NCBI GenBank assembly: GCA_022360055.1
Contig: JAKSDO010000169.1
Span: 1-45,144 of the forward strand
Source of the DNA: Cytophagales bacterium
GTDB lineage: Bacteria; Bacteroidota; Bacteroidia; Cytophagales; Cyclobacteriaceae
DNA length: 45,144 nt
Direction: 5' to 3'
The notes below the pieces were generated by a model. It made no database searches. It was not told where the DNA came from and worked only from the letters and a program-made list of their open reading frames with translations. Positions within the stretch are counted from its first letter, which is position 1; each line of letters starts with the position of its first letter. Below, piece after piece: positions 18,463 to 45,144 of this stretch. The translations under genes and the position numbers were made by a program.

Positions 18463-18543
18463 TCTATTGTATTCAAATTGTGCTGCAAGTAAGGTTTTTT
18501 TAAAAAAAAGCGAAAATCAGGAGCGGACTTTTTTTAAGTTTTG

Positions 18544-19824
18544 ATGTCATTGATAATCGTTGAATCGATCCGTCCGCACATGCTTAAAAAGGAGATAATT
18601 TTAGATTCTATTTTAGGGACAGCCTTCATTATTTCCCTCATCCTTCTTTTTCAAATGGTGCGGTTTTTTGGAGAATTTAGCTTATTAGACCCCATTGGAG
18701 ATGCAATAGGCGATGTCGAAACCACCGACCTCGTTTTTTCGGAAATCAGAGAGCCCCCAAAGGTGGATAAAAATGTAGTTCTCATTAATATTGGCGAGCT
18801 TTCCAGGCGGGAGATTGCTCGGGAACTGCAAATAATCAATGATTATGGGCCTGCCGTAATCGGCATAGATAGTTATTTCTGGAGCTTAAAAGAAGATTCG
18901 ATTGGTGATTTATTATTAAACAGGTCGCTATCTGACATTGAAAATCTGGTATTGGTCAGCCAGCTCAAGTACAATAAGTTTTCCGATACATACGATTCGA
19001 TCAAGTATTCCGATCCGTTTTTTAATTTGGGAAGTACCGGTTTTGCCAATTTGGAGACCGATGCCCTGGCACAACATCAGTTTAAGGTCTGCAGATCTTT
19101 TCCGCCGGTAAAAATTGTAAACGAAGCGCGGGAGATGGCCTTTTCGGTGAAAGTAAGCGAACTGTTTGATCCGGAGAAAACCGACCGGTTTTTGGCTCGG
19201 GGAAATGATTACGAAATCATCAACTACCGCGGGAACGTTATGGACTTTGGCCAATCAAAATTCGGCGGGAGATATACGGCATTGGATGTGGAAGATGTAT
19301 TCGAACACAGGTTTCAGCCCGAACTCATCAAGGATAAAATCGTATTGTTCGGATTTATGGGTGAGGATTTCAGTGACCGATCGTGGGAAGATAAGTTTTA
19401 TACACCCTTAAACATCAAATATGCGGGCAAATCAAATCCGGATATGTTTGGTGTTGTGGTTCATGCAAATATAATTTCCATGATTTTGAACCAGGATTAT
19501 ATTGGTAAACAAAGCAAAATATCCGGTGTCGTTACCGCGTTGGTGATTTGCTTTATTACCGTTCTGATCTTCACATGGATTTACAGGCGTTTGCCTCAAT
19601 GGTACGATGGACTGACCAAAGCGATCCAGCTTGTAATCGTTTTATTAATGCTTACGGTCAACGTATTTATTTTTCATTGGTTTAATTACAAGACCAGTCT
19701 GACCCTGGCTACCATACTTATCGCCCTAACAGGCGATTCGTTGGAGATCTGCTATGGTCTCATTAAGAATTTGTTTTCGAAAAGAGGACGAAAGGCGGTT
19801 TTCAGACTTTACAAGGAATACTAA
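18544..19824 (+). CDS. CHASE2-domain membrane protein without output domain
   Basis: The protein has an N-terminal membrane segment at about residues 24-42. A CHASE2-type extracytoplasmic sensor follows at about 70-320, with VVLINIGELSRREIARELQIIN, PAVIGIDSYF, DKIVLFGFMG and the late GVVVHANIISMILNQDYI motif. Three C-terminal membrane segments lie at about 327-347, 360-381 and 385-406, ending in a short basic tail. CHASE2 domains normally feed adenylate cyclases, kinases or phosphatases; here nothing follows the last membrane helix. The output must therefore pass through the membrane helices to another protein. The best candidate is the secreted protein encoded 12 nt downstream. The start may be the ATG at 18544 (426 residues) or the one at 18580, which gives a more typical N-terminus. 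Confidence 0.87.
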   Translation: MSLIIVESIRPHMLKKEIILDSILGTAFIISLILLFQMVRFFGEFSLLDPIGDAIGDVETTDLVFSEIREPPKVDKNVVLINIGELSRREIARELQIINDYGPAVIGIDSYFWSLKEDSIGDLLLNRSLSDIENLVLVSQLKYNKFSDTYDSIKYSDPFFNLGSTGFANLETDALAQHQFKVCRSFPPVKIVNEAREMAFSVKVSELFDPEKTDRFLARGNDYEIINYRGNVMDFGQSKFGGRYTALDVEDVFEHRFQPELIKDKIVLFGFMGEDFSDRSWEDKFYTPLNIKYAGKSNPDMFGVVVHANIISMILNQDYIGKQSKISGVVTALVICFITVLIFTWIYRRLPQWYDGLTKAIQLVIVLLMLTVNVFIFHWFNYKTSLTLATILIALTGDSLEICYGLIKNLFSKRGRKAVFRLYKEY

Positions 19825-39612: not shown

Positions 39613-40557
39613 TCAGTTGTCCTGTCCTTCTTTTTGCTTTATTAATCGGGTGAAAAATGCCTTATAGTTTTTCGAAACAGGGATTATTTCATCTGAGTAG
39701 TTCTTTAAGCCCAGTGATAATCCCTGATTGTTTTTCATGGAAACAGCGATCATGTTTATGTTTACCATATACGAGCGATGACATCTCCGGATCGGATATT
39801 CGTCAAGTTCCGTTTCCAGCCTTTTCAGGGTGGTTCGCACGAGTTCTTTTCGTACTTTTCCGTCCCTGAGAAAATACACTGCTACATAATTATCCGCGGA
39901 TTTGATAAACAGCAATTGTTCCAGATCAATGGCAATGTGCAACTGACCATTCTCATCCAGGATATTTACGAGGTGGTTGCTGGCATTCAAAAGTGTGTCA
40001 ATATTTTCTCCCTGCCGAGTCGTATGAAGATAAAATAGGACCCCGGCATACGGAATGATTAACACAAGAACCGTGTACTTGAATATGAGATAAAATTCGT
40101 TTACCATTGCGCCTCCCTTTAAGCTGGTATTTCCATAGATGAAATACATGGTGACGGTCAGCAGCATCAATTCGACAAGAAACCATAAAACAATGCCATA
40201 CATTCTGACGGCCCTGATGTTCAGAAACTCTCTTATCACCAGTTGACTGATCATCAATACCGCTGTCCCAAAAAGCCCGAAACCCGAAAGAATTATAAAC
40301 ATTGGAATGGTCTCATCCCTGTACAGGTTGTTGACATTGAACGGATGGTATAGATTCATGAAAAGAATTGTGTATATACCAATGGTGACAATTAAAAGCA
40401 GCCGGTTTTGCTTTTGATCCAGAAGGTGAAATGGCTGGTTTAAGAAATCTTTGATCACGTGCAAATGCTCTTGTGCTAATGAGAATTCAATACTAAGTAA
40501 ATTTATCAAGTCCTGAAAATATTGATCATGGATTAGGGCAATAATTTTGAGTTTCAT
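39613..40557 (-). CDS. Membrane-anchored LytTR-type transcriptional regulator
   Basis: This 314-residue protein has four predicted membrane helices at about 52-70, 84-106, 119-140 and 157-178. A C-terminal LytTR DNA-binding domain follows at about 205-305, with the family landmarks LLFIKSADNYVAVYF, KELVRTTLKRLE, RRCHRSYMVNINMI and IIPVSKNY. It has no receiver domain, so a signal sensed in or near the membrane would act directly on the DNA-binding domain. LytTR proteins bind short direct repeats. It diverges from the giant Cache-like protein gene across 235 bp, which contains a GGTATGC direct repeat 30 bp apart. Confidence 0.9.
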   Translation of the reverse strand: MKLKIIALIHDQYFQDLINLLSIEFSLAQEHLHVIKDFLNQPFHLLDQKQNRLLLIVTIGIYTILFMNLYHPFNVNNLYRDETIPMFIILSGFGLFGTAVLMISQLVIREFLNIRAVRMYGIVLWFLVELMLLTVTMYFIYGNTSLKGGAMVNEFYLIFKYTVLVLIIPYAGVLFYLHTTRQGENIDTLLNASNHLVNILDENGQLHIAIDLEQLLFIKSADNYVAVYFLRDGKVRKELVRTTLKRLETELDEYPIRRCHRSYMVNINMIAVSMKNNQGLSLGLKNYSDEIIPVSKNYKAFFTRLIKQKEGQDN

Positions 40558-40792: not shown

Positions 40793-43700
40793 ATGGCAAC
40801 CCAACGCCTGAGACCAAACCGCCAGTTGACCGTAGCCCTCATCACATTAATTGTCGTCGGGGTATTGTTCGCCTATTATTTCCTTGTTCATACCAAAAAT
40901 CAGGAAGGCAGAATAGTAAGTCAGGCCTTCAATAATCTGAGTACGCTGTCGCTCGGGTTTCAGGATAATATCCGAAGTCATAAAACAGCTTATGAGAATT
41001 TTCTCAATGGCATCAATATGCGGTCTGTAAACGAATTGGTGTTTTCAACTTATGATTCCTTGTACCGCGGCCATCTGGAAAGTTATCGCAGAGAAAACTA
41101 TTTGATGCGGACAAAAATGTTTCTCAGGTCGAAGAATTACAATTATAGGAGGCAGTATTATACACAGACCAGTTCGAAAAAGGAGATCGAGAAAAGAATT
41201 GTTGAAGATTTGCAAAAGGTAATGCCGAAGTCCGGTACTTTTAAGCTGACGAAAGTTCAACGTGTTCCGGCCGGAGGCCCCGATGATTCGGATCCAAATG
41301 TCGCACTCGAGATAAGCCGTGGTAAAATCTCTTTCACGTCCACCATCACAAGTACCGCCAGCAGAAGGAATTCGACCTTGAAACTCTGGTTTAGTACCGA
41401 TTTGGAATCAATAATTTCATCGACGTTTAACAATAGAATATTTGAGGAATTTATCCTTATTTCAGGCGACAGCATGGTTTATCAGACCATGGACTATAAG
41501 TTTAAAAAGTTCAATTACGATACGCTCAAAGTACTCAACAGAGAAATCAATTACATGAACAATATTGTTCAGAAATTTGTAAAAAACGGCAGCTCCGGCC
41601 ATATGGAGGCGGATGGGTCGCTTGTGAGCAAGGCTTTGTCGTCGCCCAATCTCTATGATATCAATGTTTCCGAAATCCGTTATAAGTTGTTCTTAAACCA
41701 GTTTGAGCTCGATGGAGAATTTTGGGTGTTGGGAGGATTTATGAATTCGGATTTTTATAACCGGCAAAAGCGCTCGGTCGAACCCACCATATTGCTGATC
41801 GCGATATCTGTTTTGCTGTTCATTTTGCTGGCTAGCCAGTTGATTAAACTCTTTATACTTAGTGAGTTTGAGCAGTTTTTTATCCGAAATATAATTATTT
41901 CGGTTGTCTCGATAACAGTGGGATCGAGCATGCTTGTAATCGGACTTATGAGTACCGTCTCTTATTGGACGGTGGATCGAAATGAAAAAGACCTGGAACT
42001 TGAAATATTGAATGACCACATAAAGGAATCATTTTTCGATGAGTTGTCCGATGTCATTAATTTCATAAAGACCTGCGACAATACCTTATCCGCCTACAAT
42101 TGGCTGAGCCCTCCGACCCGGATATCCCGGAGCGACTTTCTGGATACGTTCAATATTGAGCATGCTGATATAGAAAAATTTGACAATACTTACTGGATCA
42201 GTAAAAAGGGAGATGAAATGGTCCAGGTCTATGAGGCCACCCGGCCGGTTTCATATCTTAATCTGGAGCGAAGGGAATACTTCCGGTCCATCCGGGATGG
42301 TCACGGTTATGTGTATTCGGACTTCTTTTCCAGCGGGCCAATCCGCTTTTATTTTCAGCCGTTGAAATCCTGGGTGACCGGCAAGAAAACTGTCGTAGTT
42401 TCCATAGAGAGCGCCGGGGCCCGATTAAATTTGGACAGCATTCCTGTCGTGGCCGCCATGGCCACCCAATTCCGCTCCCTTCAAAAATGCCAGTTGTCCC
42501 CGGGCTATGGATTTGCGCTTATTGATGAAGAAGGAAAAGTACTTTTTCACAATGACGACCGGCTGAGCTTAAGTGAAAATTTCCTGAAGGAGTGCTCCGA
42601 TGTCAAAGAAATACAGTCTGCGATGTTGTCCAGAGCGTCTTTCAAAAAGTCGATAACTTACCACAACAAAAAATACAGAATTTATTTAAGGCCCGTTCAA
42701 AATATGCCGGTCTACCTGATCACCTATCACGACCGGGAAATCTTCAGGCTGCCCGGGGTGCTGATATTTTATTACGCTATATTGTTTTCGCTCACCGGGT
42801 TGATTTCCGTAGGATTCTGGATACTTTTTTTATCGGTCTTTAACTATCACAGCTCCAAACTTAAATTTAAAAGTCTCATACTTGACTGGGCGGTTCCGGA
42901 CGTAAACAAATTGCCCTGGTATTGGAAAGCGACCATCGTAAACACCCTTGCCATTATAATCATATGCATTGCGGAAGTTGTATTCAGTAAAAGCCTGACA
43001 AATAAGTTTATATTCCTGTTTCTGGCGGCCAACTTTGTTTTTCCGGTCAACTATTTCATGCTTCGGAAATGTACGGAACGGGATCTTACGGTGTTTCGGT
43101 TGGGGAAAATTCTAAAATTGATCTTTAGCGACCGGGTTATTCTCGTATTTGTCGGTCTCCTGGTAGTATTCAATGTTTTTCTCATACACAAGGATTACAC
43201 GTTCACACTCAATATTGTACTTTACCAGCTTGCATTGTTGTCGCTGTTGTTTGTTCCGCTCTTCTTGCATTTCATTAAATTCAAAAGTTCATTTTTAAAA
43301 AAAGTACTGGACATAAAGCTCGCCCATGCCTATACGGCTTTTACGATTTCGTGGCTGATACTTGTTTCGATCATCCCGTCGATCTTTTATTTCGGCATCG
43401 CTCATCAGAATGAATTGAACATCTGGAAAAAATTCGATCAGCTTCAAATTGTCCGGGAAATGTACCGCCGCGACATGGAGAAGGCTTCCCGGGATGAAGT
43501 GCATCGCGGGTTCTACCTGGTATTAAATGAAAAGGATACAACATGTGAAATGCCGGAGCATGAAAAGGAATCCCTGTTGATCAATACCATTTTTCATCAT
43601 TTGCGTTTGCCGGTCGGCAGCCTGTCCGATCTTACCAAAAGCTTTGTCCCGGAGATTCGGGATACATCGGAAAAATGGGCCTTCCGTATTGCCGATAACA

Positions 43701-45112
43701 CGGGTCGGCGATCGTTGACAGCCGGATATCAATATCTTGGAAAGCGCGCTGACCTTCAATTTCTTCGTCCGCCAAATCTTTCCAACATAGATGCGTATAA
43801 AAATAAATATCCGGACGCCGGCCCCTGGAAGGCATGGAGCGGATCTATTGTCCTGGCTGCAATACTCGTATTGGTGGTTTTGATCTACATCATGTTGTAC
43901 TATTTGCTCAACAAAATATTCGGGTTTGAATTCCTGATCTCCGGAAGGCTGGTTTCTTCTTCCAGGCAACAAGTCCTGTCATCCGTTACGGATGGGAACG
44001 ATGTCTTTGTCGTTGGTTTACCGGCTCCCGATTTTGATGAACTTAAGGGAAAAGTTGCCCGCATTGACGATCCCGGAACCGAAGCAGCAGCAGAGACGGC
44101 AAAAGGGAAGGGTCAAAAACTCAAGGTTGAATACATCGATCTTCAGGATCGCAGGGGGGCTGCTTCCGCAGATCTTGTCGACAGGAAGCTGGTTGTGATC
44201 GATCATTTCGAATATTCGTGCAACGACCCGGACAGGCTCCGGCAAAATTTAGCGCTGGTCGAGGAGATTAAGAATCAGGGGAAGCAGGTGGTCATATTTT
44301 CGAGTATAAGTCCCAGGCAGGTAGAGCGGATCTACAGCCAGTTCGGGAAGTCCGGACCGGTGCGCGATCCCGAAAAGCAGGCGAGCTTCATGAACGATGC
44401 GGATTTATGGGTGAAATTGTTAAAGTCATTTCATGTGTTGCATTACCGGCTGGCGCAAAACAATATGGATCATTTTGTGGCTGAAGATCGACACAGCCTG
44501 TTGCAAACACAACTGACGAAACTTATCAGAGCGGAGCTGAGCGCCTCCACTTATTTTAAAGGGGTAGAACATTTGGTGGCGCAGAAGTACAACCTGATCC
44601 TCGAACAATGGAAAGACAGGGACATTACCCGGACCGAGTTGAAAACCCTGAAAGAGGAGATGATCCTTTATATCCAGGACATCGCCCAGTCTTACTATTT
44701 TGCCCTCTGGAATACGTGCTATAAAAAACAGCGTTTCTTACTGTACGATCTTGCATTTGATAACATAGCCAACTTCAAAGACGGCGCAACAGTGCTCTTT
44801 CTGTTGAAGAAAGGGATCCTGAAATTTGACAATGGCGTACATATCATGAACGATAGTTTCCGGCATTTCGTCATTGATGTCCTAAGTCAGGAGGACGCGC
44901 GGGCCATGCGTAGGGAAATGGAGCAAAAAGGCGCCTGGAACTCTACCAAGGTCGTACTTTTTATCGTAGCAATTTCGTTGTTGGTTTTTATTTTCATGGT
45001 AAATAAAGGATCCATCAACCAGATGAGCGCTATAATTACCGGTGTCGTAGCCCTGATAGGCGCCTTGTTAAGGATTTTCAGTTTTGTGCCGAAGTCAGAC
45101 GGCCCCACTTGA
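40793..45112 (+). CDS. Giant polytopic membrane protein with Cache-like sensor and degenerate P-loop domain
   Basis: I recognise no named family for this 1439-residue protein. Visible parts in order: a membrane helix at about 15-33; an extracytoplasmic region to about 328; membrane helices at 331-355 and 366-391. A Cache-like region lies at about 395-650, with ERREYFRSIRDGHGYVYSDF, then GYGFALIDEEGKVLFHND. Six helices fall between 655 and 870, then a loop and a helix at about 1015-1040. A cytoplasmic region (about 1070-1180) reads like a P-loop NTPase stripped of its Walker A Lys (GLPAPDFDE), keeping a Walker B-like strand (KLVVIDHFE) and a sensor-like strand (QVVIFSSISP). A winged-helix-like part follows (about 1310-1362), and two C-terminal membrane helices lie at 1386-1430. 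It is probably a sensor scaffold. Confidence 0.85.
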   Translation: MATQRLRPNRQLTVALITLIVVGVLFAYYFLVHTKNQEGRIVSQAFNNLSTLSLGFQDNIRSHKTAYENFLNGINMRSVNELVFSTYDSLYRGHLESYRRENYLMRTKMFLRSKNYNYRRQYYTQTSSKKEIEKRIVEDLQKVMPKSGTFKLTKVQRVPAGGPDDSDPNVALEISRGKISFTSTITSTASRRNSTLKLWFSTDLESIISSTFNNRIFEEFILISGDSMVYQTMDYKFKKFNYDTLKVLNREINYMNNIVQKFVKNGSSGHMEADGSLVSKALSSPNLYDINVSEIRYKLFLNQFELDGEFWVLGGFMNSDFYNRQKRSVEPTILLIAISVLLFILLASQLIKLFILSEFEQFFIRNIIISVVSITVGSSMLVIGLMSTVSYWTVDRNEKDLELEILNDHIKESFFDELSDVINFIKTCDNTLSAYNWLSPPTRISRSDFLDTFNIEHADIEKFDNTYWISKKGDEMVQVYEATRPVSYLNLERREYFRSIRDGHGYVYSDFFSSGPIRFYFQPLKSWVTGKKTVVVSIESAGARLNLDSIPVVAAMATQFRSLQKCQLSPGYGFALIDEEGKVLFHNDDRLSLSENFLKECSDVKEIQSAMLSRASFKKSITYHNKKYRIYLRPVQNMPVYLITYHDREIFRLPGVLIFYYAILFSLTGLISVGFWILFLSVFNYHSSKLKFKSLILDWAVPDVNKLPWYWKATIVNTLAIIIICIAEVVFSKSLTNKFIFLFLAANFVFPVNYFMLRKCTERDLTVFRLGKILKLIFSDRVILVFVGLLVVFNVFLIHKDYTFTLNIVLYQLALLSLLFVPLFLHFIKFKSSFLKKVLDIKLAHAYTAFTISWLILVSIIPSIFYFGIAHQNELNIWKKFDQLQIVREMYRRDMEKASRDEVHRGFYLVLNEKDTTCEMPEHEKESLLINTIFHHLRLPVGSLSDLTKSFVPEIRDTSEKWAFRIADNTGRRSLTAGYQYLGKRADLQFLRPPNLSNIDAYKNKYPDAGPWKAWSGSIVLAAILVLVVLIYIMLYYLLNKIFGFEFLISGRLVSSSRQQVLSSVTDGNDVFVVGLPAPDFDELKGKVARIDDPGTEAAAETAKGKGQKLKVEYIDLQDRRGAASADLVDRKLVVIDHFEYSCNDPDRLRQNLALVEEIKNQGKQVVIFSSISPRQVERIYSQFGKSGPVRDPEKQASFMNDADLWVKLLKSFHVLHYRLAQNNMDHFVAEDRHSLLQTQLTKLIRAELSASTYFKGVEHLVAQKYNLILEQWKDRDITRTELKTLKEEMILYIQDIAQSYYFALWNTCYKKQRFLLYDLAFDNIANFKDGATVLFLLKKGILKFDNGVHIMNDSFRHFVIDVLSQEDARAMRREMEQKGAWNSTKVVLFIVAISLLVFIFMVNKGSINQMSAIITGVVALIGALLRIFSFVPKSDGPT

Positions 45113-45134: not shown

Positions 45135-45144
45135 TGCTCCATGA

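Follow-up and report, generated by a model that had tools for sequence, protein, structure and literature searches.

Inactive STAND modules have been described in MoxR-vWA systems (PMC7159879, PMC8195603), where they are proposed to be sensors or switches for effectors including peptidases, and a similar role is proposed for the BrxB-type modules of BREX (PMC12839542). According to the parts of these papers available to us, about 28% of the iSTAND ternary systems have N-terminal membrane segments, a site of action close to the membrane is presumed for some, and the systems are frequent in Bacteroidetes (PMC7159879, PMC8195603, PMC12839542). The gene described here comes from a Cytophagales bacterium (Cyclobacteriaceae) and is located at 40793..45112 on the + strand of a 45,144-nucleotide stretch (contig JAKSDO010000169.1), which is called the window. 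It is one intact open reading frame (ORF) with an ATG start; as had been claimed from the letters alone, the frame is open across all 1439 codons and encodes a single protein. This protein contains a real, conserved and degenerate NTPase module of the inactive STAND kind inside a membrane sensor.

Like iSTAND, iSTAND2 and BrxB, as far as the accessible parts describe them, the window protein combines eroded Walker motifs with a STAND-type P-loop fold. The inactive modules in those parts are components of MoxR-vWA or BREX defence systems and have a reduced or absent helical bundle, whereas the window protein has a helical and a winged-helix domain and represents a family of many-pass Cache receptors. 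The terms "Cache" and "patatin" are absent from the main text of the three papers, the part available. No MoxR or vWA gene was found among the ten window proteins scanned, the contig stopping 32 bases after the receptor gene, at 45144. The iSTAND model PF19995 misses the window gene, and its sole match in the genome sits on another contig.

Bacterial NACHT proteins act in phage defence, according to the part of the source consulted (PMC12169576). Their nucleotide-binding and winged-helix parts are in register with the window family in a long profile alignment; in contrast to them, the window protein carries its sensor N-terminally and outside the membrane, has lost Walker A and has no Pfam-recognised effector domain. 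The cores of CED-4 and plant NLRs bind nucleotide and have no membrane part, and those of CED-4, RPP1 and Roq1 share 8-11% sequence identity with the window unit. The AAA+ proteins of replication and transposition (5he8, DnaA, Hda, IstB) are active ATPases. KAP proteins are membrane-associated P-loop NTPases with membrane helices inside the P-loop domain, whereas no hydropathy peak is present between residues 1046 and 1379 of the window protein. The dCache receptors (histidine kinases, PctA, Mlp37, Tlp3) have an extracytoplasmic fold like that of the window protein (E 3e-6 to 1e-5), and their dCache domains feed chemotaxis or kinase output. No protein pairing Cache with STAND or NACHT was found in the literature searched, which was largely non-subscription and mostly consisted of titles and openings of abstracts.

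Fold of the C-terminal unit

A P-loop NTPase fold and a winged-helix-like module had been proposed by the sequence-only reading, and structure prediction confirms both. Residues 1018-1439 were modelled with AlphaFold2 (pLDDT 85.7), and in the structure search this model matches AAA+/STAND P-loop NTPases. The Foldseek E values are 6e-5 for 5he8, a replication-initiation AAA+ protein, and 1.3e-4 for DnaA (2hcb_C). These values, together with relatives that keep Walker A intact at the same aligned position, put the match beyond chance. The strands and motif positions of the P-loop core are in proper order, and the predicted model has the order of STAND modules, from a nucleotide-binding domain (NBD) over a helical domain to a winged helix:

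40793..45112, + strand: whole gene, many-pass receptor-like protein of 1439 amino acids (ORF)
43952..44452, + strand: P-loop NTPase-fold domain with five strands, residues 1054-1220 (model, fold matches)
44498..44683, + strand: helical domain, about residues 1236-1297 (model)
44687..44887, + strand: winged-helix domain, about residues 1299-1365 (model, conserved columns, inside the CED-4/RPP1-aligned range)

Structure comparison, with rows within one Z treated as tied, gives the best Z for the core to replication-initiation AAA+ proteins. When the NBD, the helical domain and the winged helix are taken as one unit, the best matches are CED-4 and the plant NLR RPP1, whose alignments extend to model residues 369 and 363, respectively. 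Among the best 50 rows listed, the eight with at least 247 aligned residues belong to CED-4, RPP1, Roq1 and PABY2304, whereas DnaA and Hda reach 190 at most. The assignment of the NTPase part to a STAND-type unit of NBD, helical domain and winged helix is supported.

Profile comparison with the whole family gave a probability score (Prob) of 73 (E 3e-5) for 15 bacterial NACHT sequences, 19.5 for 19 DnaA, 1.4 for three ABC and 0.4 for nine KAP sequences, with reversed NACHT and DnaA controls at 0.2 and 0.1. By profile, bacterial NACHT would be the nearest of these four P-loop families. The default NACHT alignment covers 101 columns, from Walker A to sensor 1; at a laxer setting, 297 NACHT columns stay in register through the whole winged helix.

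Scanned against Pfam and NCBIfam, the window protein had sub-threshold matches only, none above the cut-off. The NACHT model PF05729 is unlisted for it at E <= 10, and in its genome at E <= 0.001; Bac_DnaA is also unlisted for it, with matches in the genome only on other contigs. The NCBIfam matches to Hda (12.1 bits against a cut-off of 194.8) and pgsA are far below the cut-off, and a sub-threshold FliG_C match (Pfam, residues 1353-1385) was put down to chance similarity in the winged helix. A PDB sequence search gave no match at E <= 1, and the family profile found a best E of 0.062, which is unconvincing. PADLOC had no match for the window protein. CarboxypepD_reg-like domains match 2 of the 78 C-terminal pieces in alignment A2, from which L105, L093 and L114 (our locus handles) were excluded.

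Erosion of the Walker motifs

VFVVG (residues 1071-1075), GLPAPDFDE (1075-1083), KLVVIDHFE and QVVIFSSISP, the four motifs quoted beforehand, were each found once, at the residues assigned to them. Three of them correspond to the Walker and sensor motifs:

44015..44038, + strand: eroded Walker A GLPAPDFD, residues 1075-1082, with F1081 for Lys and D1082 for Ser/Thr (aligned relatives)
44186..44212, + strand: Walker B-like strand KLVVIDHFE, residues 1132-1140, opposite NACHT LLLLDGLDE (alignment)
44285..44314, + strand: sensor-1-like strand QVVIFSSISP, residues 1165-1174 (alignment)

Because GLPAPDFD aligns with GLPHSGKT and GPPRSGKS of relatives whose Walker A is intact, the motif had not been misplaced. 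The sequence-only reading was right on this position, on the missing GK[ST] lysine of the window, on the P-loop fold, the winged helix and the Cache-like region. Its expectation of a lysine consistently absent across homologues did not hold: K is present in 45 of the 86 aligned sequences, four of these with Ser/Thr. The complete GK[ST] is kept by two, L144 (Terriglobia metagenome-assembled genome (MAG), GPPRSGKS) and L045 (same family as the window, GLPHSGKT). Two more have K[ST] without that glycine, two have R[ST] and 41 have K without Ser/Thr, such as GSGKL in L102 (Pedobacter mendelii), while neither signature is found in 39, including the window. In L095, L099, L135 and L151 (K without Ser/Thr) and in L106 (K[ST]), there is no glycine frame and the K may be chance. 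The loop did not align in 13 of 99 sequences (11 flagged partial, plus L055 and L059), which were excluded from the 86; those inspected among them show no GK[ST] at the loop.

Ser/Thr after the lysine position is kept in 6/86 sequences and the Walker B Asp in 7/86, with D1137 of the window among the latter; Asn is found there in 31 and Glu in 21. S1170 (79/86) and P1174 (77/86) are widely shared, and W1306, A1321, L1337, F1356 and W1382 are present in all 86. At 31 positions of the C-terminal unit, 80-100% of the sequences agree in their residue; most of these positions lie in the winged helix, which is the best conserved part of the unit. A quick tree requires at least 15 changes of the K state, so that the loss is recurrent or the tree noisy; branches are long, including that of the window, and the deep branching was not relied on. 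As judged from the alignment, the loss of Walker A appears to be graded, the shape being kept while the chemistry goes.

Outer region and membrane topology

About ten N-terminal membrane helices and two terminal ones had been predicted. After overlapping peaks were merged by hand, hydropathy gives ten segments N-terminal of the NTPase-like domain (residues 14-32, 333-351, 367-385, 662-680, 713-731, 739-757, 782-800, 808-826, 852-870 and 1017-1035) and two C-terminal of it (1385-1403 and 1414-1432), and the terminal pair is also seen in the model. The NTPase-like domain would be cytoplasmic, provided that the N-terminus is inside, with the presumed periplasmic regions on the opposite side:

40832..40888, + strand: membrane helix 1, residues 14-32 (hydropathy; the model has a long helix 10-73)
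40898..41770, + strand: first presumed periplasmic region, about residues 36-326, mixed helix and strand (model, parts with pLDDT <50)
41789..41947, + strand: membrane helices 2 and 3, residues 333-351 and 367-385 (hydropathy)
41990..42733, + strand: second presumed periplasmic region, likely the dCache domain, about residues 400-647 (placed from model strands)
42740..43402, + strand: membrane helices 4-9, residues 650-870 (hydropathy, model)
43430..43822, + strand: third presumed periplasmic stretch, about residues 880-1010, low confidence (model)
43841..43897, + strand: membrane helix 10, residues 1017-1035 (hydropathy, helix in model)
44945..45088, + strand: C-terminal membrane hairpin, residues 1385-1432 (hydropathy, helices in model)

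The Cache-like nature of the outer region was borne out through the relatives and by fold. Pfam dCache_1 matches 20 of 44 family members, the window's own sequence not being among them. The N-terminal model of the window, built with 44 rows (pLDDT 74.1), matches in Foldseek the dCache-type domains of histidine kinases, PctA, Mlp37 and Tlp3, with E 3e-6 to 7e-5 among the 50 best matches listed. The Foldseek output gives no hint whether the first or the second large outer region was aligned; the strands of the model suggest that the dCache domain corresponds to the second one, residues 400-647. R494, Y496 and H586 are invariant in 44/44 rows.

Distribution of the family

Relatives are found in 64 of the 196 genomes of the window's own family, some by the winged-helix part only, and in 8 of the 395 genomes of a phylum sample, the own genome being included in both counts. 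A profile search of a species collection matched 84 stretches, of which 80 were kept, whereas a search of genome contigs with the single window protein as query found no relative. Full-length copies mostly have 1150-1600 residues. The titles point mainly to Bacteroidota, presumably of the orders Cytophagales, Chitinophagales and Sphingobacteriales. The outliers are one Terriglobia MAG and one Pyrinomonadaceae MAG, both of which we take to be Acidobacteriota and either of which may be contaminated, and one contig titled Rickettsiales (L100). The copy on this contig falls among Cytophagales sequences and the record is probably misnamed. In L105, L121, L137, L146 and L151, the receptor is seemingly split into consecutive same-strand N- and C-terminal ORFs, by fission or frameshift. 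L047 (5325-14307), of the same genus as the window, has two tandem family copies, one with an in-frame stop.

Gene neighbourhood and hydrolases

The 115 loci were dereplicated to 98 by identical C-terminal stretches. In 49 of these 98, a same-strand neighbour is no more than 130 bases away from the open frame of the receptor, and in 14 the same-strand run includes a gene for a patatin, subtilase, M19 or papain protein. Membership in a run was judged by the distance to the opening of the receptor frame and not to its first ATG. Runs were limited to four genes per side, so that nine further run members (L035, L038, L095, L137) were counted outside; these nine include the subtilase of L095 and the weak patatin match of L035. 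The four hydrolase kinds account for 18 of the 116 run members and 5 of the 661 other ORFs (Fisher 7e-12), a contrast biased because the kinds were chosen after the runs had been inspected. Pfam family counts without preselection are the fairer test. There, patatin ranks first among the run families (9/116), followed by subtilase, M19, beta-lactamase and Rieske with three each, and papain with two. In 116 length-matched other ORFs, beta-lactamase occurs twice, and patatin at most twice, since it is unlisted among 25 families reaching down to 2.

Patatin genes stop 15, 9, 18, 11 or 51 nucleotides before the first ATG of the receptor, and one overlaps it by 4. Downstream patatins begin 28 (L137) and 121 nucleotides (L114) after the receptor, and in L084 an M19 gene lies between. 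The M19 gaps are 106-115 nucleotides, and the papain gene of L144 lies 154 nucleotides from the receptor's first ATG. Subtilase-related proteins are encoded 36 nucleotides upstream (L150) and 36 nucleotides downstream (L130), both in Dyadobacter loci; the latter (L130, 7123-12873) has 1917 residues and combines two subtilase stretches with a caspase domain and DUF7379. The partnership with patatin changes at least six times on the quick tree. PADLOC was run on seven proteins: the patatins of L101 and L102 match models labelled Effector and Phospholipase, which we take to be CBASS effectors, and the L130 protein matches subtilase and caspase models, whereas two M19 proteins and the papain had no match.

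Run members seen in single cases include a Tle1-like phospholipase, a muramidase, an amidase, a metallophosphatase (plus one just under the cut-off), a GMC oxidoreductase and a MacB/FtsX protein. A protein of about 160 residues is encoded on the same strand 28-88 bases after the receptor in L083 (6934-7410), L088 (6988-7479), L089 (7084-7575) and L149 (6904-7380); it has no Pfam match (L088 scanned), and a related gene lies upstream of the receptor in L108. Another recurring family, with membrane-like segments and no Pfam match (L086 scanned), is found in hydrolase-holding runs (L084 2-553, L086 619-1572, L102 1-273, L128 1-642, L137 8362-9420).

Proposed mode of action and alternative explanations

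We consider it probable that the protein is a membrane receptor with an ATP-free STAND/NLR-like switch or platform, which may control an adjacent hydrolase in part of the family. The dCache region, on the outer side of the inner membrane, would sense a small ligand, and the ligand-induced change would be relayed via the roughly ten membrane helices into the cytoplasmic STAND/NLR-like unit (NBD, helical domain, winged helix), which would be re-anchored by the C-terminal hairpin. Since the pocket of the window lineage has lost the phosphate- and Mg-binding Walker A residues, this unit probably no longer turns over ATP. It would act as a receptor-driven conformational switch or docking platform, which in part of the family may control the hydrolase next door (patatin, protease or peptidase). 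The earlier idea of an NTPase fold reused as a candidate signalling or scaffold module fits these results. More tentatively, the receptors might form an undescribed membrane NLR-like family of Bacteroidota, perhaps also Acidobacteriota, with Cache outside, an ATP-free pseudo-NACHT switch, and patatin, subtilase/caspase, papain and M19 as interchangeable neighbouring effectors. If this is true, the graded P-loop loss would record the conversion of an ATP-driven immune-type switch into a ligand-driven one. Stages from intact to lost Walker A within one conserved architecture would make NLR-like switching without nucleotide testable, as well as whether extracytoplasmic sensing in Bacteroidota feeds immunity-type lipase and protease effectors.

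Several results weigh against the ATP-free, hydrolase-controlling receptor. No such hydrolase is in the run in 84 of 98 loci, nor among the ten window proteins scanned before the contig stops, and the Fisher contrast is biased as described. The lack of such neighbours favours a plain nutrient or envelope sensor with incidental neighbours, its hydrolase runs being due to chance or to some sublineages. This explanation is possible, but we rather doubt it, as patatin is the commonest run family, has changed partnership repeatedly, and in four cases ends 9-18 nucleotides before the receptor's first ATG, with one further overlap. D1137 of the window makes weak nucleotide binding possible. An atypical, active STAND switch, binding ATP by other residues and cycling slowly, could draw on this residue, on S1170 and on the K of 45/86 sequences; the rarity of Ser/Thr (6/86) and of the Walker B Asp (7/86), and F and D for K and S/T in the window, make it unlikely.

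The NACHT match itself is fragile: masking the Walker A columns lowers it to Prob 3.1, members without K alone give 4.5, barely above DnaA (3.6), and the winged helix alone gives 0.8 against 0.5 for the reversed control. The subclass therefore rests mainly on structure. The module might instead be a replication-initiator-like AAA+ scaffold (DnaA, Hda, helicase loader) and not STAND/NLR. Such chains top the Foldseek list and have the best core Z, Hda matches the C-terminal piece weakly (E 0.0061), Bac_DnaA touches 4 of 78 members, and the DnaA and NACHT profiles are near-equal with K-less members alone. We regard this as improbable, given the longer alignments of CED-4, RPP1, Roq1 and PABY2304 (at least 247 residues against 190 at most, best 50 rows listed) and the higher score of NACHT than of DnaA with the whole-family profile. 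The eroded motifs could finally reflect a decaying domain without function, which is hardly credible for a frame open over 1439 codons, with 31 positions at least 80% conserved, mostly in the winged helix, and relatives spread across Bacteroidota, plus those in two MAGs whose titles name Acidobacteriota groups.

Other genes of the window

The receptor gene has a divergent neighbour, given here as context, with no link to the receptor shown:

39613..40557, - strand: protein with a LytTR DNA-binding domain

Further upstream, a CHASE2-domain protein (18541-19824) adjoins MeaB and DnaK (Hsp70) genes.

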